Origin: Cephalotus follicularis
Lineage: Eukaryota; Streptophyta; Magnoliopsida; Oxalidales; Cephalotaceae
Direction: 5' to 3'
Length of the DNA stretch: 64,000 nt
Assembly: GCA_001972305.1 (NCBI GenBank)
Contig: BDDD01003352.1
Coordinates: 49,789-113,788, forward strand
Under the pieces are notes generated by a model. The model had not been told where the DNA came from, searched no databases, and worked only from the letters and a program-made list of their open reading frames with translations. The translations under genes and the position numbers were made by a program. Below, piece after piece: positions 1-64,000 of this stretch. The number at the start of each line of letters is the position of its first letter. The stretch's first letter is position 1.

Positions 1-735
1 TCTTCTGAGGTTTCATGCTTCCTTTTATAGCCAGAAAAGATTTATAGCCGTTGCTTGATTTGTGGAAGCTTTTGATTTAATAATGTGAGTTGCAATTATT
101 GAATTTATCTCTGCTGGAACAAAGACGTCGACTTCTTTAAGAAAGGCGTCGATGTCTTTCAGTTGGTAGCTGTTGGAAGTGGTTAAACTAGCCGTTCCAT
201 GTTTCCTGGGAGTTGTCTATTTGAAAAGGCGTCGACTTCTTTGTGAAAGGCGTCGATGTCTTTTCTGGGAAATCTCCAGGTGCAGAGGCTTTGAGTGTCA
301 CGTCGATCTCTTCCTTGTAGTTGATGCTTTTTCTGGGAATTATGAAAATGGCGTCGATCTCTATTGAAAGGTGTCGATGTCTTTTACTTGGACGTCGATG
401 TCTTTTGTTTAAGGATCGATGTCTTTGAGAGCATTTTCATACAGTAGCTTCTGGTCCAGAAAATGAGTAAATGCGTCGATGTTATCACTAAAGTAGTCGA
501 TGTCATCTTGAAAGTAGTCGACATCTTCTTGAAGTGGTCGACTTCTTTTGGTACGGATATCAATGCCAATTACTGGGAGGACGATGTCTTCCTTGCAGTT
601 AATTCTGTTCAAAAGACGTCGATGCTATTTGGAAAGGAGTCGACTTATTTTTCTGCAGATAGGTTTTAGACTTTGATATTCAACTTGTAATTCCTTGCAC
701 ATCAAGTAAATTAGTTAGATGCAAATATGTTATCA
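1..735 (-). repeat. LTR-like remnant with GTCGAC repeats
   Basis: This stretch has no convincing coding region. From about 121 to 645 it is filled with degenerate copies of a motif such as AAAGACGTCGAC (121-132) and GGCGTCGATGTCTTT (145-159). The same + strand wording occurs in the solo LTR at 17608-20116, so I take this as a relative of that LTR, probably also in minus orientation. Neither end can be defined: the left end is outside the window, and the right end runs into copia coding sequence somewhere between 735 and 770. It could equally be an unrelated LTR carrying the same repeat class. Confidence 0.45.
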
Positions 736-770
736 TAAAAACAAGGATTGAGACTTAATCGTCAACAAGT

Positions 771-1136
771 TGGAAGAGTTCTGAATAGCCTACCACTATG
801 GATTCAGCCACAAAAGCTGAATACATTGCGGCGTAGGAAGCTGCAAAAGAAGGTGTATGCATGAAGAAGTTCATCGATGATTTGGGTGTAGTTCCTGGCA
901 TTGATGATTCGGTATCTTTATACCGTGACAATAATGGAGCGATAGCACAGGCCAAGGAACCAAGATCGCATTCAAAATCTAAACACATTCTCAGGCGCTT
1001 TCACCTTATACGTGAGATCGTTGATCGTGGAGATATAAAAGTGGATCGAGTTCTAGGAGAAGACAACACTGCAGATCCGCTACTAAAGCATTACCGAGGG
1101 TGGTCTTTGAGCGACACCTTAATGCTATGGGTATAA
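771..1136 (+). pseudogene. copia pol remnant: RNase H C-terminal part
   Basis: One frame reads through the end of a Ty1/copia polyprotein. It shows the STTEAEYIAA-like block (here DSATKAEYIAA), the YRDNNGAIAQAKEPRSH block, the SKHI...HLIREIV block and the ADPL tail near the stop at 1134-1136. These are the usual order of motifs at the RNase H end of copia pol. Two in-frame stops lie in the first 75 bases, and nothing of RT, integrase or gag remains, so it is a dead fragment. The polypurine tract and LTR follow within 40 bases, which confirms orientation and identity. Confidence 0.85.
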
Positions 1137-2668: not shown

Positions 2669-5230
2669 TGAAATGCCCGAAAATTCTATCCAATGTATTA
2701 TTGTAATTCTCAATTGTAATTAAATGATAAATTAATGAAATGATGGATTTTCAAACTTGTGATGTTGAATTTTGGGCAAAGAGTGCTAAAAGTGTTGTGA
2801 TCGACTGAAAATATTTAAAATGGCCTAAATCACAGACTCCGTGAAGCAAAGCGTTGACGCCAAGAAAATAAAACGCACACTTAAAGTACATGCGCTCAAA
2901 GCGTTGATTCCAAAAGACAGCGTCGATGCCAAGAAGTACACAGGGTTAAGCGTCGATCCCAATGGTATAACCGTTGATGCTTAAAGACGACACAGATGGA
3001 TTAGAAACACTGATAGAAAACGTGTTGAAGGGCAGGTGAAGGCCACTATTCGGGCACCTTGTCACACCATGTGGTAGCGTATTAGACAGGTCACCATTTC
3101 CCTAGGCCTGCAATGTCAGAAAGGAAGAGAGGGGAAGAGAGATGTGTGTCATGTGCCAGGTGAGAAGTGAGAAAAAGAGAGAGTCATCGCGCCATGCATG
3201 CTGAACAGAAAGAAAGAGAGATAAACGCACCTTAAAAACATGCCCGTCATCTCCTTTAAACGGGGCTGGAAAGAAAGAAAAGAGAAAGAAAAATAGAGAG
3301 AACACAGAAGAGAAACCAGGAAAAGAAAGGAGAGACAGAGAGCACCATATTTCTCCATTTTTGGAATGGACACAAGCTTGAGGCTTGGAAACAAAGGATT
3401 GAAAGCTCGAACTTGGATTGGAGTTGCGGTATCATTCCTTGGAAGCTTAAAGCTACAGGTCGGTGAACTTATAGGATGAGGACTATGATTCCTAACATGG
3501 AATCTGAGGTAGGGACTATATAACTGTAATTTTGAGCTCAAATGTAATGGATGTTTATTTGGTGAAATGCATGATATTGTGGATTGTTGACTATGCAATT
3601 GATGTTATGGTTACTATGGATAGTTAACCTGCCATGCATGTGTGATTGAAATGATAATGAAATGAATTGCATGCATGATTTGGTTTGCGTTCCACTGGTA
3701 TTAAGATGCATTGAAGAAGACGATGCTTTGGTTTTCATTAACCGTCGATGCTTAAAGGAAAAGCGTTGATGCCTTGACCTGTTATGCAGGAAATGAATGC
3801 TTGGTTTCGCTAAACCGTCGACACTTGAAGGAAAAGCGTCGACGCCCTGATTTGTTGTGAATGAAAATGGACACGTGAAGCATTGACGCCTGAGGTTCCT
3901 ACCTTGAAGCGTCGACGCCAAGGAGATAAGCATCGAGGCTTAAGGGTCCTTGCCTTGAGCGTCGCGCCAAATAGACAAGATGTTGACGCATAAAGCTTCT
4001 GGTTTAAAGCGCTGACGCTAAGAGTTAAAACGTCAACGCTTAAACGACATAAGCATCGACCAAGAGTAAAACGGCGATGCTTAAGTGACTGATATGAACG
4101 TTGACACCTAGAGATTAGATGTTGACGCCAAAAGGGTCTATTTGTATTTTGAGCATATGTTTGCCTGCATAATTACTATGGATTGAATTGTGGATTGTGG
4201 TGTTATTGATTCTAAAGTGTTGTACCATTTTAGAAAAGTGCATACATGATTTTAACATAACTCATTATTCTACACGAAAATGTATATTTTCGAAGGATTG
4301 AAATGTGGTTTCAAAGACTGAATATTGTTTCAAAAGACTATTTATACATTTTGAATAAATGTATTGTTCAAGTATTTCATAACATATAAACTACTTGGAA
4401 ACGGATTTATTTTTGATTGATTATTGGATTGTGATTGAGACTGATGCCGTGTCAGCTGGAGTGGCAGAGATTATCACTGATGGCCGATGGCGGGTTGGGC
4501 TCTAGGCGCCAGGAGATGACTAAGGACACCCAAACTGGTTACTTCGCCATAGTGCAAGTAACATTGGATTGACTGGCCTGCTTTGAGTCATCCGGAGACG
4601 GGGCTGAAGTAGGAGCACAACGTCGGGGCCAGGAGATGGCAATGCGCTTCGTACGTATGGATGGATTGATTGGTCCTTTGTGACATGATTGATTGACTGT
4701 ATTAATATAGCCACTTGGAATGTTGCGTATATATTGACGGATATACATATATACATACATGTATTGCTTTATATACTATGTGTTGCATCACAATGCATTC
4801 ATTTCATGACATTTATTATCGTTGACCCCAAAATACTTTGATATCTTTCCTACACAGCCAGTGGATTTGGCTAACCCTATCAATTTCAGATTGATGCAGT
4901 GGGATCGATATGGACAAGCGTGGTTTGACCGAGGAGAAGATAAAGTCGTATTTTCGTTTGAGAAATGTTTAAATGGATTAATGTATTGAATGAATAATAG
5001 TTCATGCTCCGTTTGAAGGCGATTGACAATCTTTATAACGTATCGTTGTTGAACTTGAGTAACATGTAGTATGGGATGCGTGTTACATTATTTAAATTCA
5101 GCTTATAATTAATGCTTCCACAAGATATTATATGATTTGGAAAGTTTTTAGTTTTTCGAGTTTTTCATATAAGCTGAATGTATGTTAATGGCCATGACCT
5201 CTAGGTCGATTGTGGAAACGGGGTGTGACA
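2669..5230 (+). repeat. gypsy A 5' LTR
   Basis: Starts TGAAATGCCC (TGTGATGCCC in the 3' copy) and ends GGTGTGACA. It has two clusters of GTCGAC-type repeats, at roughly 2836-3010 and 3722-4130, mostly of the form GCGTCGACGC with C-to-T or G-to-A changes at CpG. Between them lies GAG/GTAGGG (3506-3514). Near the end, CTAAC (4871-4875) is followed by TTTCAG (4884-4889). Open frames on the minus strand around 3100-3900 show no family resemblance and are not called. Confidence 0.9.
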
Positions 5231-5234
5231 TCAG

Positions 5235-5246
5235 TGGTATTAGAGC
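5235..5246 (+). other. primer-binding site, element A
   Basis: TGGTATTAGAGC lies four bases after the LTR end. It differs at one base from the initiator-Met tRNA-complementary site TGGTATCAGAGC that is seen intact in element B and in the second copy of element C. Confidence 0.85.
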
Positions 5247-5342
5247 ATATTTGTTATATGCTTAACTTGGATAAGTTCCTTGGCAATTAATAAATTGTTT
5301 TCCTTCAGATGATTAATCACATCATTTATTATATGAAACGAA

Positions 5343-9895: not shown

Positions 9896-11466
9896 TGTGA
9901 TGCCCAAAAATTCCATCCAATGTATTATTGTAATTCTCAATTGTAATTAAATGGTAAATTAATGAAATAATTGATTTTCAAACTTGTGATGTTGAATTTT
10001 GAGTGAAAAAAGCTAAAAGTGTTATGATGGATTGAAAATATTGAAAATGGCCTAAAGCGCCGACGCCATGAAGTAAACCATTGACGCCAAGAAAGCAAAA
10101 CGCATGTTTAAAGTACATGCCCTCAAAGCGTTGACGCCAAGAGACAGTGTCGACGCTAAGGAGATATGCTCTGGGCGCCTTGTCACGCCAAGTGGTAGCG
10201 TGTTAGACAGCTCGCCATTTCACCAGGCCTGCAATGTTAGAAAGGAAGATAGGGGAAGACAGGTGTGTGTCATGCGACGGGTGAGAAGTCAGAGAGAGAG
10301 AGAGAGAGTGAGAGAGAGACCTAATGCCATGCATGCAGAAGGGAAAGAAAGAGAGAGAAATGCACCATAAAAAACCGCCCGTCATATCCTTCAAAACGAC
10401 CTAAAAAGAAAGAAAACAGAAAGAAAAATAGAGAGAAAACAGAAGAGAAACCAGGAAAAGAAAGGAGAGAGAGAGAGAACCCTGTTTCTCCATTTTTGCA
10501 CTGGACATAAGCTTGAAGCTTGGAAACCGAGGATTGAAAGCTCGAACTTGGATTGGATTTGCGGTGCCAGCCCTGGGAAGCTCAAAGCTACTAGTCGGTG
10601 AACTTAGAGGAGGAGGACTATGATTCCTAACTTGGAATCTGAGGTAGGGACTATATAATTGTAATTTTGAGCTCAAATGTAACGGATGTTCATTTGGTGA
10701 AATGCATGATATTGTGGATTGTTGACTATGCAATTGATGTTATGGTTACTATGGATAGTTAACCTCCCATGCATGTGTGATTGAAATGATAATGAAATGA
10801 ATTGCATGCAAGATTTGGTTTTGGTTCCACTGGTATTAAGACGCGTTGAAGAAGACGATGGTCTGGTTTTGTTTAACCATTATGCGGAGAGATAAATGCT
10901 AGAAACTTTGACGTTTAAAGGAAAAGCGTTGATGCCTTGACCTGTTATGCAAGAAACAAATGCTTGGCTTCGCTAAACCGTCGATGCTAGAAGGAAAAGC
11001 TTCAACCCCCTTATTCATTGTGGGTGAAAATGGACACGTGAAGCGTTGATGCCTGAGGTTCCCACCTTAAAGTGTCGACGCCAAGGAGATAAGCGCTGAC
11101 GCTTAAGGGTCATAGCCTTTAGCGTCGACCCCAAAGAGACAAGATATTGACGCAATATGCTTTTGGTTTAAAGCGTTGATGCTAAGAGTCAAACCGTCGA
11201 ATCTTAAAGGACATAAGCACCGACGCCAAGAGTAAAACAGTGATGCTTAAGTGATTGATAAGAATGTTTATGCCGATAGAATACATGTTGACGCCAAAAG
11301 GGTCTGTTTGCTTTTTGAGAATAGGTTTGCTTGCATAATTACTATGGATTGAATTGTGGATTGAGATGTTATTGATTCTAACGTGTTTTACCATTTTGGA
11401 AAAGTGCATACAAGATTTTAAAATAATTAATTATTTTACACGACAATGCATATTTTTGAAGGATTT
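9896..11466 (+). repeat. gypsy A 3' LTR, first piece
   Basis: Matches the 5' LTR from its first base to the equivalent of about 4300. It ends in GATTT (11462-11466), the left target duplication of the SIRE-like element. An AG-rich microsatellite at 10291-10318 is expanded relative to the 5' LTR. GTCGAC-type clusters lie at about 10057-10170 and 10850-11300. Confidence 0.9.
10291..10318 (+). repeat. AG microsatellite in gypsy A 3' LTR
   Basis: A run of AG dinucleotides with one GTGAG interruption. The 5' LTR has only a short AAAGAGAGAG stretch at the matching place (about 3170-3182), so the repeat changed length after insertion. Confidence 0.75.
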
Positions 11467-12615
11467 TGTTGGCCTTTGCCACCCCGTTAATTGCATTAAC
11501 ATATGTTATTTTGATGATTAACAAACATATAACACTTGTATGCATAATTCTCTGAGCTACAACTTCATATACTCACTTGATTTTATGTCCAAAGTTGTGC
11601 CAAGGCTATTTCTGCAGGTACAGGGCAATCCAGCCGACTTCCAAGTAATCCAGCCGACTGCGAGGGATGAGTAGTCGACTGCCATGGGTTGAGTAGCCGA
11701 ATGATTCTTAAAACAAGTCCAGAAACTACAGGAACACATGATCCAGCCGACTGCCACAGGGGAGCAGTCGACTGCCAGGCCAAACCAGTCGACTGCCAGG
11801 GAATCCAGCCGACTGTCCACATATGTGCAATATCAGGCAGAAGTTTTTGTAACTCCTTATTTAGCTCCAACAACCGGCTGGAATAGAGCACCAGTCGACT
11901 GCCATGTCCACCAGCCGACTTCCCAGAGGAAGCAGCCGACTGTCCATCACCAACGGCTATATTCAAAATACGCGCATCAAATCCAGCGGACTGCCGTATA
12001 AATCCAGCCGACTGGATTGTAACTGAACTTCAAAAATAGATCCGTTGGAGCACAAGTATAAATGCCAAAGTGGAGCATTCTTGGGGGCATCTCTTGCAAT
12101 CAAAGTGAACATTCATTCTAGTCAACTCAAGCACAATTCCAAGCTTTCGAAACATCAAAAGAGATCATATCAAAGCTATCCCTAACATTGCAAATCCTTC
12201 GAAATTTACATTTTGTATACGTTAAGAGCTTTGTGAAAATTGAGCGCAATTGTAAACAAATTTGTTGAGAATTTGTATATCCTTCAAACACTTTATTTCA
12301 CACATAAACAAGAGAGGTTGTCTCTTGTTTTTGCTCGGTTGGAGCAAATTTGTATTCGCTTGGTTGGAGCGAAGGTAGTTGAAGCTCGGTTGGAGTTTCA
12401 AGCCCAGATTGGGGCATACTTAGTGAAATACTCAAGGGGAGGCCTTGGGGAGTGGACGTAGGCGGTTTGCTGAACCACTATACATCTGTTTGCAATCTTT
12501 CTCAACCCTACACTCTTTACATTTCCGCATTTGTGTGATTGATTTTAAATTGTTTCTTGTTTAATTTCTAGTTAATTTTTTAAATGTCTATTCACCCCCC
12601 TCTAGACTTCCTACA
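11467..12615 (+). repeat. SIRE-like 5' LTR
   Basis: Starts TGTTGGCC and ends CTTCCTACA, 1149 bp. A cluster of CCAGCCGACTGCC / CAGTCGACTGCC repeats fills 11631-12015, just upstream of a TATA box at 12057-12063, which places the cluster in the enhancer part of U3. By eye, the first 200 bases differ from the 3' LTR at about seven positions. Confidence 0.93.
12057..12063 (+). promoter_or_regulatory. TATA box of SIRE-like 5' LTR
   Basis: TATAAAT, about 40 bases after the last GTCGAC-type repeat and about 560 bases before the LTR end. The same box is at 22213-22219 in the 3' LTR. Transcription would start some 30 bases downstream; this is inferred from position only. Confidence 0.6.
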
Positions 12616-16857: not shown

Positions 16858-17264
16858 AACTCTCAATATATGTGCAATTGTGATGCTTTGCTAAATATTG
16901 TGTGATTTGGTTGAAAAATGTTTTTAAAAGATCATCAGGCATTAAACATTGAGTTTTTAACTCAATAACATATATTAGCTCATGTACCTAGGTTGATATT
17001 AGTCCATAATAGTTAACCAATGGTTTGCAAAACAAATTGGATTGGCATTATCTGCATTTCCAAATTCTGCAGAAAACAGCCGACTTGACAATTTGTCCAG
17101 TCGACTGCCTGCCATCTAGTCGACTGACATTAAAGGCCCAGTCGACTGGAAGTGCAGGAATTAGGGTTTTAAACCCGAATTCCCATTTGCTCTCTCACTT
17201 TTCTCCCAATTCTAAAAACGCCCAAACCCTAAACTCTCTCAATTTCGACCTACATTCGACTCAA
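16858..17264 (+). promoter_or_regulatory. spacer between pol and third ORF with GTCGAC repeats
   Basis: No coding sequence. From 17079 to 17153 it holds four repeats of the same class as the LTR U3 cluster (CAGCCGACTTG, CCAGTCGACTGCC, TAGTCGACTGAC, CCCAGTCGACTGG). Two telobox-like motifs follow, TTAGGGTTT near 17162 and AAACCCTAA near 17224, just before the third ORF's ATG at 17265. The LTR-type repeats inside the element suggest an internal control region for the third ORF. That is inference from position; no TATA box is obvious. Confidence 0.5.
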
Positions 17265-17607
17265 ATGGCACCAAAGAAGCAAAAGCGCATGACTACAAGG
17301 CAACCAAGTGCATCTCAAGCGGAATTGGACTATGACAACAACCTCTTTCTCTCCAAAGAGAAGGAAATTCGGTATAATTCCGTTTTTAGCTTTGTGAAGT
17401 TACATTTTGAAAAATGGTTGACTAGAGATGTTTTAGTTAGTAATCTAGCTATTGTCATGACTTGGTTAGAAACAATGGGTTGGTTTGACTATCTTTGCTC
17501 ATCACATGTCATTTACCCTAGATTAGTCAAGTTATTTTATGCAAATCTAGAGTCTTCCACTACTTGTGTTGCAAATTCCTTTGTTCTAGGCAATCCTATA
17601 TCCATAA
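17265..17607 (+). pseudogene. SIRE-like third ORF, 5' part
   Basis: Begins MAPKKQKRMTTRQPS with a basic N-terminus, then a region with FVKLHFEKWLT and RLVKLFYANLE. The latter resembles the domain often annotated in plants as a putative plant transposon protein, found after pol in SIRE-like elements and sometimes called envelope-like. No signal peptide or membrane segment is evident. A solo LTR flanked by CATAA interrupts it at 17608. Removing that LTR and one CATAA copy would keep the frame and give about 375 codons with no stop. Function is unknown; I do not call it an envelope. Confidence 0.75.
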
Positions 17608-20116
17608 TGTCACACCCGTTTATAGAAAACGCGATATTAAAGCGGTAAAGACAATTAACAAGAAATACAGCTCGTGAAAATCCATGAAAATTAAAACTTT
17701 TCCAAGAATAACAGTTGCGGAAGCATCTCAAAACATAAGCTGTAAACACGTAACGTGCGTCCCATACCGCACGCTACCCAAATACAAGTTATCAAGGTTA
17801 ATCGCCCATAAAACGGAGCATGAAATACAGTACAATACAAAATTCCCTCAGAAATGGGACCATAACAATGGTACATCCCAAACCGTAATCCACAAAGGTT
17901 TAAACAAAACAGGAAGATAAACAAAATCAAGAATATAACAACTTGATCTTCGTCCGTGCTGATCCAACAGTCCGCTGTATTAATCTGTAAAGTAGGGGGT
18001 TAGCCTTTGTCCTCACTCGGCTAAGTCATACCAGTAAATCGGGATCCACATAATGCATGTCATGACATGAATGCATAAATGATGCAGTACAGTAGAGACC
18101 CAGTTTGTACATATATAAAAATATATATACGTATAACAGTACAGTAAAATATCGGTTTTACATATATAAGAAATATATGTATACAGTAACAGTACAGTAG
18201 TAACCCGGCCAGGGTTACGTCAACAACCATAGTAATGTCCAAGAAGGACCAAAAGGCAGTACAGTATGTCCGCATAGGAGCACAACAGGCAGTCAGGATG
18301 TCCACATAGGACCACAACAACAGTTATAGCGCCGCCAACTCCTGGCCCCATGCTACACTCCCACTACGGTCCCCACTTCGGGCAACTGAGCGAGGCAACA
18401 GTACAGTGAGTCACCTAGCCATGCTCGTGGCCCCTAGGTACAACCCTACCACTAGTCGGTGCTGGCAACCTCCGCCATGCAACTAGCAGCTCAAACACAA
18501 TCACAAGTAATTCACAGAGCAAACAGTAACAGTAGTGTAAATCGTTTATCCGTTCGGTCGAAAATACGTTATTTAATCAATACATATTTTCATACTCAAA
18601 ATATCTTATTCCGAGCTCACATATGCATTTCTAAAGTATTAACACATTAGAAATCATAAACAATACACAAACAGTACACAATCAAGCAGTAAACAATGCA
18701 TATGCAATACACACATATGCTCAAATGCACCCTAACAGGAATCGGGATCGTTTCGTATCATTAAGAGAAGAAAACCCCAAACAGTAACAAAGACGTCGAC
18801 GTCTTTCCAAAAGGCGTCGATGTCTTTCACGTCAGGCGTCGATGTCCAAGTCTCAGTGTCAGCACGTTCTTCTACAGAAGGCGTCGATGTTATAAAAAAG
18901 GCGTCGATGTCTTTCACATCTAAAACCAGGTAGGTAGCCTAGGGTGTCGATGTCCTTCCATAGACGTCGATCCCTTTCAATCAGTAACAAGGCAAAACTT
19001 TAAAAGACGTCGATGTTCAACTAAAGGAGTCGATGTCTTTTCTAACAGTAGTCGTCTTCTACCTCACGACTTAACAAACAGTAGCCTTAACAACCCAATA
19101 TTATACATAACAACAGGTTTTCATGGCAAGAAACCAACATGCAGATACTCCAAACATATCTAGCATATCATGGCATCAAACAGTAACAATGTCATTCCAA
19201 GAATCATGCATTTTTATACATTCGAAATCATAAACCATGCATAGATATCAAACTCGAAATTACAGTATGGCTTTCCCCTACCTCTGGTCTCAAGTTAGAA
19301 ACCGAAAGTCCACCTCTTTTAGTATTCCACGAAGTCACTTGAGTTCCCAGGTACGGCTTGGAAGCTCCCTGGTTTGTCCTAGCAGTTGGTGTGCAAGCTC
19401 CAAGCTTCTTTGCTCAACAATGGTGGAAACGTTTTCTCTCTGTCTTCTGGTGTTATAAAACGAGAGAGATAAGCGGGGAGGACTATACTTATGCAGAGGA
19501 CCGCCCCTCCCAACATCCTTCTTCTGCCATTTAACATGCACACGCGTGTTCTCTCCCTTTTCTCAGATTTCTGCATTTTCTCTTTTGTCTTCTTCTTCCT
19601 TTCTTATGCAGGTTGCATGTGAGGGTGGGAATTCCTTGCATGTTCCATGTGAGGGCATGTTTGTGCATGTCTGGCAATACACTAGCACGATCACCACGTC
19701 ACCATGCACTCGTAGAGGTATCTGTAAAGCCCCTAAGATTCCCCACTGCATGTTACGCTGCCAGCGAAGAACGTGACAGCCACTCACTAAAACGGCGTCG
19801 ACGTCTTCATTTAGACGTCGATGTCTTTCCATTTTTGTAAGAAGGTGTCGATGCCTTCTCCCAAAGTCGACATGCATGCCCACGCATTCACGTGTACTCT
19901 GGTTCACAAAGTCGTCGACGTCTTTCCCAAAGACGTCGATGTCTTTATCCCATAACAACGTCGTTTCAAGCTTTAACATACTCATTCCATTCCTAAGTCT
20001 ATGAATAGGGTTTACAAGCACCTTTTGAGTTCGAAAACTCAGCATTCTCGTTAAATCAAGTTTGTGATTACATCATAAATCGAAATATTACATTCAGGAA
20101 ATTACCGGGCGTTACA
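17608..20116 (-). mobile_element. solo gypsy LTR (minus) inside SIRE-like third ORF
   Basis: Reads TGTCACACCCG on the left and GGGCGTTACA on the right, with CATAA directly outside both ends (17603-17607, 20117-20121). On the minus strand it is an LTR starting TGTAACGCCC and ending GGGTGTGACA, 2509 bp, with no internal region, hence solo. It has two clusters of AAAGACGTCGACGTCTTT-type repeats (18789-19055, 19793-19945). It shares with A, B and C a GAG/GTAGGG site (minus, 19284-19276) and a CTTAGCC...CTAAC...TTACAG module (minus, about 18026-17985). It belongs to the same broad gypsy group as those elements. Confidence 0.92.
18789..18806. repeat. 18-bp perfect palindrome AAAGACGTCGACGTCTTT
   Basis: The clearest member of the third palindrome class. 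Degenerate copies follow at about 18810-18830, 18835-18850, 18880-18920, 18960-18990, 19005-19040 and again at 19793-19945. Most differ at CpG positions. Confidence 0.85.
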
Positions 20117-20121
20117 CATAA

Positions 20122-36600: not shown

Positions 36601-36890
36601 GCTTTATTGGAGAGCTTCTATTTTGAATAAGGTTGTTACATTGAGATGTTAAGTTGTATTGTAATAATCATACTCCGTTATGTTTTTTTTTTTTACATTT
36701 ACAATATGTAAATTATGACATTGATTTGTAATGAATTAAGCATGTAGTATGGGCTGCATGCAGGTATTTTAAATAATTCAGTATTATAAATGCTTCCACG
36801 AACGTTAAAGAATTTTCTTTGATTTGATAAATGCTGGATTATTAACTGATAACCATATATATGTTGTTAATGGAAAAATATGGTGTAACA
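33689..36890 (+). repeat. gypsy B 3' LTR (full length)
   Basis: Starts TGTAATAACCGCC, ends GGTGTAACA, 3202 bp. GTCGAC-type clusters at about 33915-34110, 35018-35120 and 35298-35600. It has the segment missing from the 5' LTR, including CAGGAGTTGGC and TAGGAGTTAGC blocks (about 36185-36340) and the CTTAGCC...GGCTAACCCC...TTTTAG module (about 36527-36569). Confidence 0.9.
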
Positions 36891-47250: not shown

Positions 47251-48896
47251 TGTAACACCCCCGGACGACGGGAGTCGTCACAGGTCATAATACAGAATCT
47301 ATCAAAACATAACATAACATATCTGAACATAAACATAATTTATCAGCCAAAAATGTGGCGGTCATAGCATAACTGAAAACTTAAAAACTTAACAATTTCT
47401 GAAAACCTAAACATATTCCAGTTCAAAACTAAAACATATGTATCTTATTGTTCATGACCACTAAACAGAAAACATAATGGGATCACACTCCTAGGGATCC
47501 AAAATATAAGGTGGTAATCTCTCGTTCACACATTCCCCCGCTGCTCCTGATAACTTGCCGCAAGGAAAACAAAAACGCGGCTGAGCAAACCTCAATACGG
47601 ATAAGGAAAGAAAAGCCGAAACGATAAGTTTAAAAGCAGTAAGATTTCAATAAAATTCATAACAGAAATCTTAAGCAATTAAAAACAATTAAACATTCAT
47701 AAAGTCACATTTGTACTTTCATAAAATCCATATAACTTTCGAAACATTTACGAAACATTTCAAAACATCATATCACGATTCATAAGTCATACTAAGCTAC
47801 ATACATATCACATAACATATATTTGGCAAGGGAGGCGCTAATTCCACATGCCCACTAGAATTGAAGTGTACGACACTACACAAGTCAATTCTCACATATC
47901 ACATATCATATACTAGAATCGATTCATACGCCTCTATCACATAGCGGATCCATAAACCCACCTCATGGGATTTATTCATAACATTCAGAGACGCCGTAGA
48001 CTAATCACACCGCTACGGAAGTGTCATGTCCCCGTGCCATGCCTACGACATGCCTATGGTACGCCCCATAGGTGGGTACAATACTCAGTATTCAATCATT
48101 TAGAAAATATCGATTTATCGAAATCAATTTAAAACATACATATATGCTTCCACAAAACATATTTGAAAGTCCTTCACAACTATATCATAACGTACATTTC
48201 ATAGTCAAAACATCAACTCATTTATTTTTCATGATAAAGAGATGATCATTTCTTAAAAATAAAGTCAGGAACATTTAATTTCATAAAATGTCAAAAACCA
48301 ACTTCATTTTCGAAATATAATTCAGTTCATAAAACGAAGGAACATAGCATAAAACAAAACTGATTTCAGTTCGATAATCAGATAGTAAAGGAATGATATA
48401 AATCTGTACCTTATGCGTTCACAAAAGCACTTACGGATAGATTGTTAATTCAAACTCCCCTTTGAAGCACAACAATCTAAAAGACACCCAAAACCATTCA
48501 TATAAGGGTCTAAGAAACGTTAGAGCATTAAACAGACTTATTACAGTGTTTAGAAAAGACCTGGATTGATTCAGAGAACAAACGGAGCAAAACAGTTGAA
48601 AACAACAATTTTTCTGGGCAAAACAGCCAGCTGTCACAGGGCTCTAGTTGGCTGTTTAACCTTGGCAGCTGACTGTTCAACAGGGCCAGCTGACTACTCA
48701 ATAGAAACACCCAACTGCTTTCATATGGCAGCCGACTGCTTATCCAAACCAGTCGACTGTTCAAAAAAAACAGCCAGCAGTTCTCGACGACAGAACAGCA
48801 GAAATTCGAAATTTTAATGCAGAAACCGATTTAAACGAAAATGACATTAAACCAGAGACACAAGAACATAAACATATGACCTTACATGACATTTAG
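47251..48896 (-). mobile_element. LTR H (minus), interrupted by element C
   Basis: Plus strand starts TGTAACACCCCCGG, so on the minus strand this is an LTR ending CCGGGGGTGTTACA. TTAAC (47246-47250) would be its target duplication. It sits in element G pol. The LTR's other end is not reached before element C begins at 48897, so whether H is solo or part of a full element cannot be seen. A cluster of CAGCCGACTG / CAGCTGACTG repeats is at 48629-48785. No coding region. Confidence 0.72.
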
Positions 48897-51617
48897 TGTA
48901 ATAACCGCAAATTCAATTAATGTATATTGATCTAAATTTAAATTAAATATACATTTTAATTGAGTTATTTGTCCAATTATATTAATCTCTATGATTGGTA
49001 AATGCTTGGGATGATTGGATGTGCAATTGGAGAAGTATCAAAGATTAGGAAACCCTAAACCAGCTCAAACAGCCGACTATCACAGGGCAACAGTCGACTG
49101 TTTGGTGTATGTTGAAGGCAGTCGACTGCCACTATAGCCAGTCGACTGGAATTGTGTAGGACAGACTCCTGGCATGTGCAGGGACAAGAATGACAGGTGT
49201 GTTAGGTGGCATATGCGTTTCACCATCTGCTAGAACATGCAAAAGGGAATGCTTGCATGTTCTCTGCAGACCTACAACCTGCAAATTGATAATTAATGAG
49301 AGAAAAGTGAAGAGAGGGATGCATGTGATGGAAAGAAAATAGAGAAAAGTGAGTGCATGTGACTTGGAGAAGGAATCTGACGAATTCAAATGGATTTTGA
49401 CCTTATATCAGCTGTTGAATTGTGATATGAGTGTTAGAAAACACTGAGTGAAGAGAGGGATTATTTGAGCTTGCATTGGAGGAATTAGAGAGCTCCAAGA
49501 AGGAACCTTGAAGCTTTGGTCTCTTGGTAAGTTCTCAATCCGAATTCTCTGTGGTTATGATGATAAAATAGCTAGGAGAATGTGGAATACCTTTTGTTAA
49601 TATTAGGATTAACAACCTCTTGAATTGAAATAGAAAGTAAGGATTGGATCAAGTGGAATTGGTGACTATAACCTCTAGAATGGATTTTAGTTGTTGGTAA
49701 TGTCGTGAATATGCTTACTGGTTTCCTAAATGTAAATGCATCTTCTGTCAACACACTTAAAATCAATGAATCCAAGATTGAATAATTGTTGACATAGAGA
49801 TCAAAGGAAATTGTTTAATGGAGGTTAAGACTTAGAGAACTTGATGATTAAGCTACTATGGGAATTGCAATTGTTATAAGTAACTACTGAAACCTACTCG
49901 TACTAATACATGTGTCCATAAACATGCATACATAGATTGAACATGCTGGATTGAAAGATTGTTGGTGAAGAAGGCTTGAAACTCAAAGAGAAAGATCAAA
50001 CTCAATTGATCTTGGGATAGAAATTTGAGGTAGGGGTAATGATATGTTATGGAAGATATAGTATGCATATTGTGTATGTGTATTTTCTGCATGATTACAT
50101 GTGTTGAAATTGATTGGAAATTGAACTTGAAGTGCATGACTTGCCACTGCCTACATTTTCTAGGCAGAGGCAGTCGACTGTCAACAATTACAGTCGACTA
50201 CTCAACCTTTCCAGTCGACTGCCAAGCCAAAGCAGTCGACTACACAACCAAAACAGTCGGCTATTCTTGAGGGCAGCCGACTGTTATGGGTAGAAATTGC
50301 ATAACATTGATTGAATTGCTACTGTTGGTACTGTTATTGAATTGTACATGCTACCACCATATAGTATATACTGTTTGATGTTATTTAACATCGCTACTAC
50401 TTATATTGCAATGATAAAATGAACTATGTGCCTATGCACAATTCATGGTTTGAACACCATTTTCAAATGAAAACTATTATTTCATGAACTACTGATTTGT
50501 GATATTGTTACTGAATATGCTACTGCCATGTTAGTATAAACTGTTTTGGTGTCATTTAACACCACTACCACTTGTATTTCAATGATCGAAACCAACTATG
50601 GGCTATGTACCAAAATTATGATATCAACTATCATTTTTAAATGAATGATTATTGCCAAATGAACTACTGATTTTCCTCCTATATGAGAGGCACCTACTGT
50701 TTTGTTTCCCAAACTGGAAACCATTATTGAATTGAGATCGTTTTCCTCCGAAGAGATGTACGATAAATGACTTGTTATATGTTTCTAAAGAAACCCACTT
50801 TTATATTGCATATTGCCGATATATGTAATATTACTATTGAATGCTTGTATTGATTGTGCTTGTTGTCGGTCATCGGGTGATGGATGTGGTCACCGACTAC
50901 GGTAGGGATCCTGGGAGCCAGGAGTTGGCCAGGAGATCTCCAAAACTTATCTGCAAGACAGATCTTATTTGTTAAACCACCCGCCAACGCCGGCAGTATA
51001 TGTTACCTATTCTATCATCCTCAGAGCGCAGGAGATAGTTAGGTAGTGCACAGTCGGATCTAGGAGATGGCGGCATGTGACACCCAAATTCATGGATGAA
51101 TTGATTGTACCCTTGTGCGGTATTATTGCATATGTATTGTTTATGTCGACTTGGCATGATTGCTCATATATTGGCACATTTAAATGTTATTCTAATATAT
51201 AAACTGTCATACATGTTGCATTCATATATTTCTTATCATACACTATCTTCCTACTTAGCCACGTGAGGACAACGGCTAACCCCTACAATTTCAGATTAAG
51301 CGAAGACCTCGGATATTGCCGCTGAAGCTTGGAGAGCTTCTTATGTTCGCTCTAAGGTTGTTATTCTTATGATGTTGTACTGTATTTGTAATTGAACGGT
51401 TCATACCTCGTTATGTTGTAATTTCCTTCTGTAAGGATATTATTTGACTTGTTCCCGCACGTAGTATGGGATGCGTGCGGACGGCTTGTATTATATTCCG
51501 GCTTATGGAATGCTTCCGCAAATTTATTTATGAACTGTGCTGGAATATTATTTATGCTTATTCTGATATCACCACATATGCTTGTCTTAACGTGAACCGA
51601 AATAACGGGGTGTGACA
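48897..51617 (+). repeat. gypsy C LTR 1
   Basis: Starts TGTAATAACCGC, ends GGTGTGACA, 2721 bp. GTCGAC-type clusters 49069-49152 and 50169-50283. TATA-like TTATATCA at 49403. Donor-like sites TTG/GTAAGTTC (49527) and GAG/GTAGGG (50027-50035). GCCAGGAGTTGGCCAGGAG near 50915-50934. Acceptor-like module CTTAGCC...CTAAC...TTTCAG ending 51294. Confidence 0.93.
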
Positions 51618-55024: not shown

Positions 55025-57746
55025 TGTAATAACCGCAAATTCAATTAATGTATATTGATCTAAATTTAAATTAAATATACATTTTAATTGAGTTATTTGT
55101 CCAATTATATTAATCTCTATGATTGGTAAATTCTTGGGATGATTGGATGTGCAATTGGAGAAGTATCAAAGATTAGGAAACCCTAAACCAGCTCAAACAG
55201 CTGACTATCATAGGGCAACAGTGGACTGTTTGGTGCATGTTGAAGGCAGTCGACTGCCACTATAGCCAGTCGACTGGAATTGTCCAGGACAGACTCCTGG
55301 CATGTGCAGGGACAAGAATGACAGGTGTGTTAGGTGGCACATGCATTTCACCATCTGCCAGAACATGCAAAAGGGAATGCTTGCATGTTCTCTGCAGACC
55401 TACAAAATGCAAATTGATAATTAATGAGAGAAAAGTGAAGAGAGGGATGCATGTGATGGAAAGAAAAGAGAGAAAAGTGAGTGCATGTGACTTGGAGAAG
55501 GAATCTGACGAATTCAAAAGGATTTTGACCTTATATCAGCTGTTAAATTGTGATATGAGTTGTAGAAAACACTGAGTGAAGAGAGGGAATATTGGAGCTT
55601 GCATTGGAGGAATTAGAGAGCTCCAATAAGGAGCCTTGAAGCTTTGGTCTCTTGGTAAGTTCTCAATCCGAATTCTCTGTGGTTATGATGATAAAATAGC
55701 TAGGAGAATGTGGAATATCTTTTGTTAATATTAGGATTAACAACCTCTTGAATTGAATTAGAAAGTAAGGATTGGATCAAGTGGAATTGGTGACTATAAC
55801 CTGTAGAATGGATTTTAATTGTTGTTAATGTCATGAATATGCTTACTGGTTTCCTAAATGTAAATGCATCTTCTGTCAACACACTTAAAATCAATGAATC
55901 CGAGATTGAATAATTGTTGACATAGAGTTCAAAGGAAATTGTTAAATGGGGGTTAAGACTTAGAGAACTTGATGATTAAGCTACTATGGGAATTGTAATT
56001 GTTATAAGTAACTACTGAAACCTACTGGTACTAATGCATGTGTCCATAAACATGCATACATAGATTGAACTTGCTGGATTGAAAGATTGTTGGTGAAGAA
56101 GGCTTGAAACTCAAAGAGAACGATCAAACTCAATTGATCTTGGGATAGAAATTTGAGGTAGGGGTAATGATATGTTATGGAAGGTATAGTATGCATATTG
56201 TGTATGTCTATTTTCTGCATGACTACATGTGTTGAAATTGATTGGAAATTGAACTTGAAGTGCATGACTTGCCACTGCCTGCATTTTCTGGGCAGAGGCA
56301 GTCGACTATCAACAATTATAGTCGACTACTCAACCTTTCCAGTCGACTGCCAAGCCAAAGCAGTCGACTACACAACCAAAACAGTCGGCAATTCGTGAGG
56401 GTAGCCGTCTGTTCTGGGTAGAAATTGCATAACATTGATTGAATTGCTACTGTTGGTACTGTTATTGAATTGCACATGCTACCACCATATAGTATATACT
56501 GTTTGATGTTATTTAACATCGCTACTACTTATATTGCAACGATCAAATGAACTATGTGCCATATGCACAATTCATGGTATGAACATCATTTCCAAATGAA
56601 AATTATTATTGCAAGAACTACTGATTTGTGATATTGTTACTGAATATGCTACTGTCATATTAGTATAAACTATTTTGGTGTCATTTAACACCACTACCAC
56701 TTGTATTTCAATGATTGAAACCAACTATGGGTTATTTACCTAAATTATGATATCAACTATCATTTTCAAATGAACGATTATTGCCAAATGAACTACTGAT
56801 TTTCCTCCTATATGAGAGGCACCTACTGTTTTGTTTCCCAAACTGGAAACCATTATTGAATTGAGATCGTTTTCCTCCGAAGAGATGTACGATAAATGAC
56901 TTGTTATATGTTCCGAAAGAAACCCATTTTTATATTACATATTGCCGATATATGTAATATTACTATTGAATGCTTGTATTGATTGTGCTTGTTGCCGGTG
57001 GTCGGGTGATGGATGTGGTCACCGACTACGGTAGGGATCCTGGGAGCCAGGAGTTGGCCAGGAGATCTCCAAAACTTATCTGCAAGACAGATCTTATTTG
57101 TTAAACTACCCGCCAACGCCGGTAGTATATGTTACATGTTCTATCATACTCGGAGCGTAGGAGATAGTTAGGTAGTGCACAGTCGGAGCTAGGAGATAGC
57201 GGCATGTGACACACAAATTGATGGATGAATTGATTGTACCCTTGTGTGGTATTATTGCATATGTATTGTTTATGGCCACTTGGCATGATTGCTCATATAT
57301 TGGCACATTTAAATGTTATTCTAATATATAAACTGTCATACATGTTGCATTCATATATTCCTTATCATACATTATCTTTCTACTTAGCCAAGTGAGGACA
57401 ACGACTAACCCCTACAATTTCAGATTAAGCGAAGACCTCGGATATTGCCGCTGAAGCTTGGGGAGCTTCTTATTTTTGCTCTAAGGTTGTTATTCTTATG
57501 ATGTTGTACTGTATTTGTAATTGAACGGTTCATACCTCGTTATGTTGTAATTTCCTTCTGTAAGGATATTATTTGACTTGTTCCCGCACGTAGTATGGGA
57601 TGCGTGCGGACGGCTTGTATTATTTTGCGGCTTATCGAATGCTTCCGCAAATTTATTTATGAACTGTGCTGGAATATTATTTATGCTTATTCTGATATTA
57701 CCACATATGCTTGTCTTAACGTGAACAGAAATAACGGGGTGTGACA
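55025..57746 (+). repeat. gypsy C LTR 2 (shared middle LTR)
   Basis: 2722 bp, collinear with LTR 1. It serves as the 3' LTR of the first copy and the 5' LTR of the second. GTCGAC-type clusters 55198-55280 and 56298-56415, including GGCAGTCGACTGCC (55245-55258) and CCAGTCGACTGG (55266-55277), both perfect palindromes. Donor-like GAG/GTAGGG at 56155; acceptor-like CAG ends 57423. Confidence 0.93.
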
Positions 57747-57749
57747 GCA

Positions 57750-57761: not shown

Positions 57762-57851
57762 ATATTCCATATATGTTATGCTGGGATAAGTTTCTCGGAA
57801 ATTAAGTAAATTATTTCCTAATGATCTTTGTCATTCCATATAGGAAACAGA

Positions 57852-60263: not shown

Positions 60264-61920
60264 GGGATTGTCTGTGGTTCCTTAGAAGATTGAAAACATT
60301 GTTGATTGGCCCCAACCGAGGAACGTTACGGAGGTGCATAGTTTCTTGGGATTGGCTGCCTACTACCGAAGGTTCATCAAGGGATTTTCAAAACTTGCTA
60401 CACCACTGACACAGTTGACTCAGAAGAAGTCCAGTTTTATGTGGGATGATTCCTGTGAAGTGAGTTTCCAAGAATTGAAGAGTCGGTTAATTTCGGCTCC
60501 AGTGTTGGCATTACCAGAAGGTAATGAGGGTTTTACTGTCTACACTGATGCTTCTGGGAAAGGATTAGGATGCGTACTCATGCAACATGGTAGGGTGATT
60601 GCATACGCATCGAGGAAGCTGAAGCCGTACGAGGAAAACTCTCCTGTACACGATCTTGAGTTGGCAGCCATAGTGTTTGCTTTACAGAAATGGAGGCACT
60701 ACCTCTATGGTGCTCAGTTTGAGAGCTTTATAGACCACAAGAGTCTGAAATATTTGTTTTCCCAGAAGGAGCTCAACATGAGACAAAGGCGATGGGTGGA
60801 ATTCTTAAATGATTACAACTGCAGTATTCAATACCACCCGGGAAAGGCGAATGTAGTGGCTGATGCGCTGAGTCACAAGGCAATGATTGCTGGAGCTATG
60901 GTTTCACAGTGGAATCTATTGGAGGAATTTCAGAGATGGAATCCGTTCATGGTTTCCCGAGGAGTTATTGTAGCAAGTATGAGAGCACAACCGGAACTTC
61001 TCAAGTGTATTTTGACTGCTCAGTATAGTGATGCTGATTTGTAGAGTATTCGCGAGAACCTAGATGCTGATTCTGAGTTCTCCATTCATACAGATGACAT
61101 ACTGAGGTTCCGAGGGAGGATATGTGTTTCGGATGATGAGAGCATAAAGAGTGAGCTATTGCAACAAGCTCACAAATCGAAATACAGTGTTCACCCAGGA
61201 AGTTCCAAGATGTAGCATGACCTGAAAAAGAACTACTGGTGGAGTGGAATGAAACAAGAAATTGCTGAATATGTAGCAAGATGTTTGACCTGTCAGAGAG
61301 TAAAGGCTGAACATCAGAAGCCTGCGGGACTGCTACAATCGTTACCAGTGGTTGAATGGAAATGGGAGCACGTGACCATGGACTTTGTGTCAGGACTGCC
61401 GAGGTCACGGAACCAACATGAGGCAGTGTGGGTTGTTGTGGAGAGACTTACTAAGTCCACACACTTTCTTCCGATGAACATGACATATTCTATCGAGAAG
61501 CTTGATCAATTGTATACCCGGGAGATAGTGAGATTGCATGGGGTGCCAGTCAGTATTGTCTGCGACCGAGATGCTAGATTTACTTTAAGGTTCTGGGAAA
61601 AGTTCCAAAAAGCTATGGGGTCGACCTTGAACTTTAGCACTGCATTTCACCCACAGACTGATGGACAGTTCGAGCGTACTATCCAGACTCTGGAGGATAT
61701 GTTATGGGCTTGTATGATTGATTTTTCTGGGAGTTGGGAGGATCATCTAGCACTGATTGAGTTCTCCTACAATAACAGTTTTCACACCAGCATTGGAATG
61801 GCTCCGTATGAAGCTTTGTACGGAAGAAAATGCAGATCACCTATTTGTTAGGATGAAGTAGGTGAGCGACAAGTGCTTGGACTGGACTTGGTACAAGAGA
61901 CCACTGATAAAGTGGAAATG
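60176..61920 (+). pseudogene. gypsy C second copy: RT end, RNase H, integrase (truncated)
   Basis: In the shifted frame: a stop at 60283-60285, [18 protein letters not shown], RNase H ([19 protein letters not shown]), stops at 61042-61044 and 61213-61215, the integrase zinc region (CLTCQRVKAEHQKP), core acids in TMDFVSGLP, VCDRDARF and DGQFERTIQ, and a stop at 61849-61851 shared with the first copy. The sequence breaks off after the VQETTDKVEM-like text at 61920 and runs straight into LTR sequence. The integrase C-terminus, chromodomain, polypurine tract and the first 485 or so bases of the next LTR are deleted. Confidence 0.9.
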
Positions 61921-64000
61921 GAATTCAAAAGGATTTTGACCTTATATCAGCTGTTGAATTGTGATATGAGTGTTAGAAAACACTGAGTGAAGAGAGGGAT
62001 TATTGGAGCTTGCATTGGAGGAATTAGAGAGCTCCAATAAGGAACCTTGAAGCTTTGGTCTCTTGGTAAGTTCTCAATCCGAATTCTCTGTGGTTATGAT
62101 GATAAAATAGCTAGGAGAATGTGGAATATCTTTTGTTAATATTAGGATTAACAACCTCTTGATTTGAAATAGAAAGTAAGGATTGGATCAAGTGGAATTG
62201 GTGACTATAACCTCTAGAATGGATTTTAGTTGTTGTTAATGTCATGAATATGTTTACTGGTTTCCTAAATGTAAATGCATCTTCTGGCAACACACTTAAA
62301 ATCAATGAATCCGAGATTGAATAATTGTTGACATAGAGTTCAAAGGAAATTGTTAAATGGAGGTTAACACTTAGAGAACTTGATGATTAAGCTACTATGG
62401 GAATTGTAATTGTTATAAGTAAATACTGAAACCTACTGGTACTAATGCATGTGTCCATAAACATGCATACATAGATTGAACTTGCTGGATTGAAAGATTG
62501 TTGGTGAAGAAGGCTTGAAACTCAAAGAGAATGACCAAACTCAATTGATCTTGGGATAGCAATTTGAGGTAGGGGTAATGATATGTTATGGAAGGCATAG
62601 TATGCATATTGTGTATGTCTATTTTCTGCATGATTACATGTGTTGAAATTGATTGGAAATTGAACTTGAAGTGCATGACTTGCCACTGCCTGCATTTTTT
62701 GGGCAGAGGCAGTCGACTGTCAACAATTACAGTCGACTACTCAACCTTTCCAGTCGACTGCCAAGCCAAAGCAGTCGACTACACAACCAAAATAGTCAAC
62801 TATTCTTGAGGGTAGCCGACTGTTCTGGGTAGAAATTGCATAACATTGATTGAATTGCTACTGTTGGTACTGTTATTGAATTGTACAAGCTACCACCATA
62901 TAGTATATACTGTTTGATGTTATTTAACATCGCTACTACTTATATTGCAACGATCAAATGAACTATGTGCCATATGCACAATTCATGGTTTGAACACCGT
63001 TTTCAAATGAAAACTATTATTGCAAGAACTACTGATTTTTGATATTGTTACTGAATATGCTACTGTCATATTAGTATAAACTATTTTGGTGTCATTTAAC
63101 ACCACAACCACTTGTATTTCAATGATTGAAACCAACTATGGGCTATGTACCTAAAATATGATATCAACTATCATTTTCAAATGAATGATTATTGCCAAAT
63201 GGACTACTGATTTTCCTCCTATATGAGAGGCACCTACTGTTTTGTTTCCCAAACTGGAAACCATTATTGAATTGAGATCGTTTTCCTCCGAAGAGATGTA
63301 CGATAAATGACTTGTTATATGTTTATAAAGAAACCCACTTTTATATTGCATATTGCCGATATATGTAATATTACTATTGAATTCTTGTATTGATTGTGCT
63401 TGTTGCCGGTGCTCGGGTGATGGATGTGGTCACCGACTACGGTAGGGATCCTGGGAGCCAGGAGTTGGCCAGGAGATCTCCAAAACTTATCTGCAAGACA
63501 GATCTTACTTGTTAAACTACCCGCCAACGCCGGTAGTATATGTTACCTGTTCTATCATCCTCGGAGCCCAGGAGATAGTTAGGTAGTGCACAGTTGGAGC
63601 TAGGAGATAGCGGCATGTGACACACAAATTGATGGATGAATTGATTGTACCTTTGTGCGGTATTATTGCATATGTATTGTTTATGGCCACTTGGCATGAT
63701 TGCTCATATATTGGCACATTTAAATGTTATTCTAATATATAAACTGTCATACATGTTGCATTCATATATTCCTTATCATACACTATCTTCCTACTTAGCC
63801 AAGTGAGGACAACGGCTAACCCCTACAATTTCAGATTAAGCGAAGACCTCGGATATTGCTGCTGAAGCTTGGAGAGCTTCTTATTTTCGCTCTAAGGTTG
63901 TTATTCTTATGATGTTGTACTGTATTTGTAATTGAACGGTTCATACCTCGTTATGTTGTAATTTCCTTCTGTAAGGATATTATTTGACTTGTTCCCGCAC
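61921..64000 (+). repeat. gypsy C LTR 3 (5' truncated, runs off window)
   Basis: Begins GAATTCAAAAGGATTTTGACC, equivalent to 49382 in LTR 1 and 55510 in LTR 2, and remains collinear to the window end. GTCGAC-type cluster 62707-62825. Donor-like GAG/GTAGGG at 62576; acceptor-like CAG ends 63834. Confidence 0.93.

Follow-up and report, generated by a model that had tools for sequence, protein, structure and literature searches.

Palindromic site arrays shared by Sirevirus-type and gypsy-type LTRs of Cephalotus follicularis: putative binding-site rows for a dimeric protein

Palindromic repeated motif (RM) boxes were described in Sireviruses in 2010, where they occur in high copy number before the TATA box of the LTR and before the env-like gene (PMC2829016). 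As far as this description extends, the boxes are CpG-rich, vary in sequence by element, start 200-400 bases into the LTR and are reported as Sirevirus-specific, being missing from classic copia elements; 12 of the 13 published RMs have a CGG-CCG signature (Tnd-1 is counted as lacking it), and the Vitis RM, CGGTCGACCG, includes GTCGAC. The same account leaves the target of the palindromes open and describes what the plant env-like gene does as controversial (PMC2829016). Our analysis concerns a 64-kb stretch of Cephalotus follicularis DNA (the window), whose copia-borne arrays agree with these boxes in copy number and position; the view of the first-pass annotation that no described system matches is not supported. 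Unlike the RM boxes of the published account, the same array types here also occur in gypsy-type LTRs, and the arrays are without the CGG-CCG signature. The copia part is thus already described, and it is the gypsy-type LTRs with the same boxes that go beyond PMC2829016.

We read the arrays as putative rows of sites to which a dimeric protein binds sequence-specifically to control transcription or silencing, a reading drawn from sequence to which we give a probability of roughly 0.7. Rows of palindromes bound by an element-encoded dimer are known from the EBNA1 and papillomavirus E2 site arrays, to which the present arrays can be likened; those differ in belonging to animal DNA viruses and in that the protein is known. 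VANDALs are Mutator-like DNA elements. For them, motif binding by VANC has been demonstrated (PMC5735166, PMC10398659), whereas the sites here are putative and known from sequence. In anti-silencing of the VANC type an element-encoded protein binds motifs and relieves silencing; here a candidate PF20167 gene has an array upstream. The SIRC of Arabidopsis resemble our arrays in their short direct repeats (10-29 bp), some of them palindromic, in their dissimilar spacers and in that many lie within mobile elements, LTR/Gypsy included; they differ in having 2-8 repeats, and the published portions at issue give neither a tie to Sirevirus promoters nor types shared by superfamilies (PMC10342631).

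The GTCGAC arrays reported in the first pass are real. The window contains 55 copies of GTCGAC, where 100 shuffles gave a mean of 5.17 and a maximum of 11; no other palindromic 6-mer is as over-represented (10.3x; GAGCTC follows with 3.3x). Fifty of the 55 copies lie in 24 array stretches (5,299 bp); the other five, at 2103, 9383, 44859, 51145 and 61620, are at chance level in number. CpG observed/expected is 1.03 in the arrays and 0.62 in the rest of the window. Three arm types can be recognised: A (CAGYCGRCTG), B (AAAGCGTCGACGCTTT) and C (AAAGACGTCGACGTCTTT). Genome-wide (1.58 Gb), three perfect palindromes are found at 15,868, 3,552 and 4,083 places versus 36, 5 and 18 for the reversed letters. 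Degenerate matching in 15 window regions gave 3-23 sites each, compared with shuffle means of 0.1-3.4, and 14 of the 15 counts were above all 200 shuffles; in X43 (43000-45200), the nine sites equalled the largest of 200 shuffles without exceeding it, and the B-like sites at 43748..43902 (no strand assigned) are possible ones only.

Among the 16 palindromic 4-mer cores, arm complementarity was highest for TCGA (0.33-0.47 over arm positions 1-6, with about 0.25 expected) and second highest for ATAT (0.27-0.33). Many A sites carry AGCCGACT instead of GTCGAC (7 of 12 in the 5' LTR of F4), so the core is YCGR and not the GTCGAC of the first pass; sites in the F3 LTRs include TTCGAA cores. A candidate DREB/CBF-like core, RYCGAC, fits the A sites but not the TTCGAA sites of F3. 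Motif information extends over roughly 10 bp in type A and 16-18 bp in types B and C and is near zero outside. The step between sites is about 21 bp: of 89 adjacent pairs lying 12-110 bp apart in ten site sets, 53 are spaced by 18-23 bp; at other spacings finer helical phase is weak (p.01 and.027; p.66 with six spacings). A protein-coding repeat was ruled out, since 20- and 21-bp spacings are mixed. A single scan of viral contigs with the A-type pattern returned zero matches.

Eleven LTR copies in the window carry arrays, instead of the nine first counted, and they do belong to both superfamilies. Sireviruses were recognised by a copia gag-pol, a PBS, several PPT copies, poly-C near the LTR end and an env-like gene. 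F4 combines PF14223, rve and RVT_2 with GGGGGAG copies, a PPT/LTR junction and an env-like gene, and also carries TTCACCCCCC and the PBS TGGTATCAGAG. Its 5' LTR (11467..12615, forward strand, target-site duplication GATTT) holds a type A array of 12 sites at 11631-12014, and its 3' LTR (21622..22772, forward), which is preceded by AAAAAGGGGGAGAT, one of 13 sites at 21786-22170; four more type A sites (17077..17148, forward) lie upstream of the env-like gene. The F4 sites begin about 165 bases into the LTR. With 16 sites in L009, 15 in L022 and 10 in L025, the LTRs of these elements, like those of F4, show the Sirevirus pattern of at least eight boxes mostly in the upper LTR half. A TATA box follows the boxes, 52-53 bp from the start of the last site, in F4, L009 and L022; in the F4 5' LTR this match is at 12057, and another TATAWAW match at 11997 lies within the array. 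Boxes upstream of the env-like gene are of type A in F4, L009 and L022 and of type B in L025 and L011.

The type C Sirevirus candidates are one LTR-gag-LTR copy (L026) and the LTR at the window start. The Sirevirus evidence for L026 consists of the PPT junction, the PBS and a gag match of 39%; between its LTRs neither pol nor env gave a match, and the LTR (461 bases) has two called sites, below the eight-box pattern. The LTR at 1..767 (reverse strand; left part beyond the window) looks Sirevirus-type by its first bases and has a type C array of 15 sites at 124-647. Its array had been noted in the first pass, in what was then taken for a remnant at 1-735; it looks like an LTR of Sirevirus type in reverse orientation that extends to 767. 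Neither a target-site duplication nor a second end was found for it, and blastn against the L026 LTR gave just 22-49 bp pieces. L027, the 10 kb preceding the window, contains a copia element of the classic kind but no body of a Sirevirus, and no env-like gene was found with type C in L026 and L027.

The gypsy-type LTRs have termini and array offsets in common, with two arrays per LTR at matching offsets. The second array lies downstream of a TATA-like sequence chosen by eye. The gypsy assignment is based on RNaseH and protease in F5 and on SH3_Tf2-1 in F2, both of which fall outside the Sirevirus definition given above; L008 has RNaseH, H2C2 and a weak chromodomain, and F2 likewise has a weak chromodomain, both below cut-off. 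In F2 (forward strand), the left LTR (2673..5230, 5' end incomplete) has type B arrays at 2851-2980 and 3742-4128, and the first part of the right LTR (9896..11466) has type B arrays at 10057-10156 and 10926-11294; past the Sirevirus insertion the right LTR resumes at 22773 and continues to 25210, interrupted by another gap. F3, assigned by a 30% protease match alone, has two forward LTRs with type B arrays: the left (29838..32190) at 30090-30219 and 31156-31228, with the TTCGAA-core sites within 31440-31760, and the interrupted right (33689..36890) at 33960-34089 and 35020-35092, with more sites within 35290-35620. A solo LTR (17608..20116, reverse, target-site duplication CATAA), gypsy-type by its termini and array offsets, carries type C arrays at 18792-19059 and 19794-19943. 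The three forward LTRs of F5 carry type A arrays: LTR 1 (48897..51617) at 49070-49148 and 50171-50283, LTR 2 (55025..57746) at 55219-55276 and 56299-56370, and the partial LTR 3 (61921..64000) at 62710-62822. Left of LTR 1, seven degenerate A sites (at most three mismatches) follow one another in exact 21-bp steps (48624..48759, forward). Extra B-like sites of an unassigned element, X37, lie at 38051..38347 (no strand assigned).

Types A, B and C are each present in both Sirevirus-type and gypsy-type LTRs. A single type was called in 27 of 29 arrays, the other two being C arrays with one B call apiece (the arrays were hand-picked and the templates come from the same data). Where an element has several arrays, their types agree in 10 of 10 elements and 7 of 7 families (permutation p.007). 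The cores found were TCGA, CCGA or TTAA and the arms AG-CT, GCG-CGC or GACG-CGTC. Clustering of arrays by their flanks was dropped, as permissive settings lumped 39 of the 56 arrays into a single group.

Conservation of sites was measured for type A alone. In F5-like gypsy copies, with the sites holding the locus-finding 12-mer left out, motif identity was 10253/11136 (.921) versus 11152/17449 (.639) for spacers in array 1 (11 copies; flanks.647), and 8696/9460 (.919) versus 8630/11366 (.759) in array 2 (9 copies; flanks.738); central CpG columns scored 2060/2226 and 1806/1892, respectively. In the Sirevirus U3 (type A, three copies) motifs exceed spacers by little, with 226/250 for motifs, 222/258 for spacers and 42/50 for CpG columns. 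The pair counts behind these identities are not independent of one another. An alignment of L016, L017, L021 and L024 (motif.799, spacer.529) is not relied on, as orientation was guessed. The first pass had held that a lack of enrichment over shuffles, or descent of all arrays from one transferred segment with mere neutral decay, would speak against its proposal; neither describes the arrays overall, the conservation being that of type A with its small gap in the Sirevirus U3. Its suggestion of a selected function is supported by sites far better conserved than spacers in the F5-like copies, the spacing of about 21 bp and the type agreement within elements.

These data bear on the origin of the arrays. 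A neutral minisatellite, multiplied from a unit of about 21 bp by slippage in reverse transcription, could have produced the 50-bp double unit in F2, the L022 array about 125 bp longer than that of F4 and the 698-bp duplication in L009; given the non-repeated spacers of F4, F5 and F1 and the motif columns kept across A-type gypsy copies, it is very improbable. Alternatively, array pieces may have been copied between Sireviruses and gypsy elements by template switching or gene conversion and then spread, any function being secondary. A-type spacers of copia and gypsy elements share eight 8-mers (0.9 by chance) and four 9-mers (0.2 by chance), and F4 and F5 share a 30-bp stretch at 93%; unmasked same-type alignments, motifs included, reach 44-45 bp at 87-91% in B and C too. 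L030 has an A row before its gene where close relatives have B/C-like rows, the upstream sequences being unrelated, which points to a recombinant or an insertion. With motif-like words masked, however, hardly any words are common to the spacers in B and C (k=8: 0 versus 0.3 and 1 versus 0.2), and copying accounts for origin, not for A sites conserved amid the drifting spacers of the same arrays; as the whole explanation it is unlikely. Two earlier statements change accordingly: that the LTRs share no other obvious sequence across superfamilies holds roughly but fails for the A-type spacer words, and pure convergence is not borne out, as copying, itself one of the options named in the first pass, has some support.

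The palindromes might also act as RNA, with hairpins in LTR transcripts giving rise to small RNAs and host silencing; they would then persist for RNA dimerisation or simply as a by-product. Folded as RNA, all nine of nine arrays were more stable than their shuffles on average (60 shuffles; z below -2 in seven), and in maize Sirevirus LTRs the regions rich in palindromes are reported to be small-RNA hotspots (PMC5311732, PMC10760457). Any palindrome array would fold stably, though, the array of the F4 LTR precedes the TATA box, and compensating arm changes, which hairpins proposed in the first pass would predict, are absent within families (arm covariation p.10,.51,.16,.99 and.73). We regard the RNA explanation as improbable.

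Dimer binding would be the likeliest selected function. From enrichment, spacing, array position, within-element agreement and A-site conservation in gypsy copies, all directly observed, we infer a protein, its dimeric state and an effect on transcription. Such a protein would occupy the sites of each array; adjacent sites about two helical turns apart would present the same DNA face, and the occupied row, which in Sireviruses precedes both the TATA box of the LTR and the env-like gene, would control transcription of the element or prevent its silencing. Gypsy-type LTRs carry the same types, so one set of proteins probably acts on both superfamilies, and array pieces were probably copied between them. 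A host factor has about an even chance of being the binding protein and is a likelier candidate than the Sirevirus env-like protein, which is a doubtful one. If the factor is host-encoded, it would point to regulators whose sites number in the tens of thousands across a genome of 1.6 Gb; if element-encoded, it would be part of a retrotransposon regulatory or anti-silencing system spanning superfamilies. Shared types in Sirevirus-type and gypsy-type LTRs of one genome offer a ready test of few proteins against few probes.

Tentatively, the "envelope-like" gene of Sireviruses might encode no envelope but a nuclear DNA-binding protein that reads the arrays of the LTR and of its own promoter and activates or un-silences the element, gypsy elements without such a gene using Sirevirus proteins in trans. 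In F4 the gene is split by the solo LTR into a first piece with a basic N terminus (17265..17607, forward, ATG at 17265) and a second (20118..20903, forward) that matches PF20167 at 4.5e-9, under the curated cut-off, which the annotated relatives P0016 and P0070 exceed. An AlphaFold model of P0016 gave no usable fold (mean pLDDT 35.8). PF20167 genes and their own arrays correspond in 3 of 3 A genes and 2 of 2 B genes. From a genome search in which 150 matches were scored of 13,073 first-look candidates, 20 were hand-picked down the score-sorted list and taken with 800 bases upstream; all belong to one clade, the third, with 31-34% identity to B genes and 25-30% to A genes. Nineteen of these 20 promoters have 2-7 sites (shuffle means 0.2-0.7), and in L044 no site was called; the sites are B/C-like in 18 and A in one. 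Clean separation of B from C fails here, and the tight pairing of protein and site is thereby weakened. There would be at least two clearly separate specificities, A and B/C, and probably three. B and C calls are mixed in 14 of the 20 promoters (64 B and 19 C in total), often at TTAA cores (GCGTTAACGC).

The window, positions 49789-113788 of contig C3352, consists of nested LTR retrotransposons, and the palindrome arrays within it form a real and strong pattern. All three arm types found here have a YCGR core: type A (CAGYCGRCTG), type B (AAAGCGTCGACGCTTT) and type C (AAAGACGTCGACGTCTTT), the latter two separated by one base per arm. GTCGAC occurs 55 times in the window (100 shuffles: mean 5.17, largest 11) and ranks first among palindromic 6-mers for over-representation. 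The arrays comprise 5,299 bases and hold 50 of the 55 copies; the other five are at chance level. The GTCGAC clusters in LTRs reported by the first-pass annotation are thus borne out. The degenerate site count exceeds every one of 200 shuffles in 14 of 15 regions and ties in region 43000-45200. B-like sites also lie beyond the named LTRs, at 38051-38347 and at 43748-43902, where the count does not exceed the largest shuffle. Across the genome assembly (1,577,397,061 bases), GCAGTCGACTGC is present at 15,868 places, AAAGCGTCGACGCTTT at 3,552 and AAAGACGTCGACGTCTTT at 4,083, compared with 36, 5 and 18 places for the same letters reversed.

Sequence information is concentrated mostly within the sites. 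Among 89 spacings of 12-110 bp between adjacent sites, 53 measure 18-23 bp and 32 exactly 21 bp; at 48624-48759 seven degenerate sites follow one another with every step exactly 21 bp. The remaining spacings cluster around 28-30, 43 and 50-52 bp and show a weak ~10.5-bp phase (p =.01 and.027), which was absent in a further test on six spacings only (p =.66). A third group of sites in the gypsy-type element F3 (31440-31760 and 35290-35620) has TTCGAA cores (AAACCTTCGAAGCTTAG) and is perhaps another arm type.

The copia half of this pattern is already known. Bousios et al. 2010 (PMC2829016) describe palindromic repeated-motif boxes in 13 Sireviruses, located in the LTRs upstream of the TATA box and, for the nine Sireviruses that have an env-like gene, upstream of that gene too; a common binding factor was not found there, and the boxes were termed Sirevirus-specific. 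According to two other sources, such palindromes are small-RNA hotspots and maize Helitrons carry the same palindrome (PMC5311732, PMC10760457). In all features tested against the 2010 account, the window's Sirevirus F4 (LTRs at 11467-12615 and 21622-22772, TSD GATTT) agrees with these boxes except for the CGG-CCG signature (PMC2829016). F4 encodes copia gag, integrase and RT domains and has several GGGGGAG tracts, a PPT/LTR junction, a PBS and a poly-C stretch. In its LTR one TATA match lies at 12057, ~42 bases past the array end, and a second within the array. Four sites (17077-17148) precede its second gene, which starts with an ATG at 17265, has a basic N terminus, is interrupted by a gypsy-type solo LTR (17608-20116, TSD CATAA) and resumes at 20118-20903; this last part matches the Sirevirus env-like family PF20167 at 4.5e-9, below the curated cut-off, which the annotated relatives P0016 and P0070 pass.

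Two other loci, L009 and L022, repeat the F4 plan, with arrays in both LTRs, 3-4 sites before the PF20167 gene and 52-53 bp from the start of the last site to the TATA box. In L009 the sites ahead of the env-like gene are present twice owing to a perfect tandem duplication of 698 bp (4829-6225). In the copia elements L025 and L011 type B sites lie upstream of an env-like gene that matches PF20167 below cut-off (2.2e-4 and 5.9e-5, respectively), and the L025 LTR is likewise type B. Type C occurs in the LTR of the copia copy L026 (PPT junction, PBS, 39% gag match) and in a second LTR, at window positions 1-767, that we judge to be Sirevirus-type from its first bases only; blastn between the two returns only pieces of 22-49 bp.

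Beyond the 2010 account are boxes in gypsy-type LTRs and further Sirevirus types. In contrast to the Sirevirus-specific boxes of that account (PMC2829016), gypsy-type LTRs carry the same types here, as the first-pass annotation had proposed; our limited literature search, covering sources in part, found no prior description. F5 has gypsy RNaseH and protease domains, F2 an SH3_Tf2-1 domain, and chromodomain matches in F2 and the fetched locus L008 are weak and below cut-off; the coding evidence of F3 is a 30% protease match only. These three elements and the solo LTR have common termini. Across five LTRs, distances from the LTR start are 162-272 bases for the beginning of the first array and 1031-1332 bases for that of the second, irrespective of type, and on termini and offsets alone the solo LTR is assigned to the gypsy type. 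At 48897-64000, three F5 LTRs alternate with two internal regions (LTR-int-LTR-int-LTR), an arrangement that looks like a recombination product.

A single type makes up 27 of 29 arrays, which were hand-picked, scored with templates drawn from the same data and not independent within a family; two C arrays contain one B call each. Copia-type arrays divide into 7 A, 3 B and 2 C, gypsy-type arrays into 6 A, 8 B and 2 C, and an additional C array sits in an LTR taken for gypsy from its first bases. Both arrays of one gypsy LTR match in type (6/6), as do LTR and env promoter in 4/4 Sirevirus copies (p =.25 for these four alone); counted once per family, the match is 7/7 (permutation p =.007).

Conservation was compared at loci selected by a perfect A palindrome, so that the result covers type A only; the pairs counted are not independent of one another. 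The F5-like gypsy copies numbered 9 for array 2 and 11 for array 1, and columns set on one copy were compared between the others. With sites holding the search 12-mer excluded, motif identity is.919 in array 2 and.921 in array 1, versus.759 and.639 in spacers; identity is.738 and.647 in flanks, and.955 and.925 at the central CpG. The Sirevirus U3 shows a small gap (motif.904, spacer.860; CpG.84), and the env promoter a larger one (86/90 versus 48/60, 12-mer sites included).

Palindromic sites spaced roughly two helical turns apart upstream of promoters would be the imprint of a dimeric DNA-binding protein. Because of this spacing, the promoter position, the agreement within elements and the conservation amid drifting spacers, such a protein appears likeliest, and we regard the arrays as putative protein-binding sites with a probability of roughly 0.7. 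The lack of arm covariation within families counts against hairpins as the selected form, even though the arrays fold more stably than shuffles. For protein-binding sites, types common to both superfamilies would point to shared proteins acting on both, or to arrays that were copied and then retained; some copying is visible in A-type spacers.

A host factor would be the straightforward candidate for the binder. The Sirevirus env-like protein itself is an unlikely candidate, even though sites lie upstream of its gene in 24 of 25 cases, A and B env-like proteins (homologous but distant; hhalign 98.3, 24% over 207 columns) accompany different site types, two of the three listed relatives of at least 355 residues start with MASKRRKS, and the repeated motifs, in the published account, vary between Sireviruses (PMC2829016). 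Against it, a domain search recognised no DNA-binding domain in the protein, hydropathy is compatible with a membrane segment (a 19-residue value of at least 1.6 in 43 of 141 relatives, maximum 2.68), no env-like partner was found for type C, and four Sireviruses of that account have boxes without an env gene (PMC2829016).

A sample of the PF20167 family weakens this candidate further. The family is very large here, with 13,073 first-look candidates and at least three clades. All 20 genes sampled from 150 listed matches, with 800 bases upstream each, belong to a third clade (31-34% identity to B, 25-30% to A proteins), which is as distant from B as A is, yet has B/C-like sites. Nineteen of the 20 have 2-7 upstream sites (shuffle means 0.2-0.7); 18 promoters have B/C-like without A sites, L044 has none, and L030 (contig C32, 193373-194721), with seven A sites, likewise argues against the env-like protein. 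B and C calls are mixed in 14 of 20 promoters and TTAA-core palindromes (GCGTTAACGC, GACGTTAACGTC) occur, so that the boundary between B and C is blurred in this clade. The L030 domain DNA is 97-98% identical to that of L031, L034 and L042, which, unlike L030, carry B/C-like sites; beyond 119 bases upstream the sequences are unrelated, and the L030 upstream region is either an insertion or a promoter exchange.

Left of the window, a classic copia element lies on the + strand (L027, 5504-7955), and copia RT/RNaseH-like sequence is found at window 861-1088. Between the two sits the reverse-oriented LTR with which the window begins.
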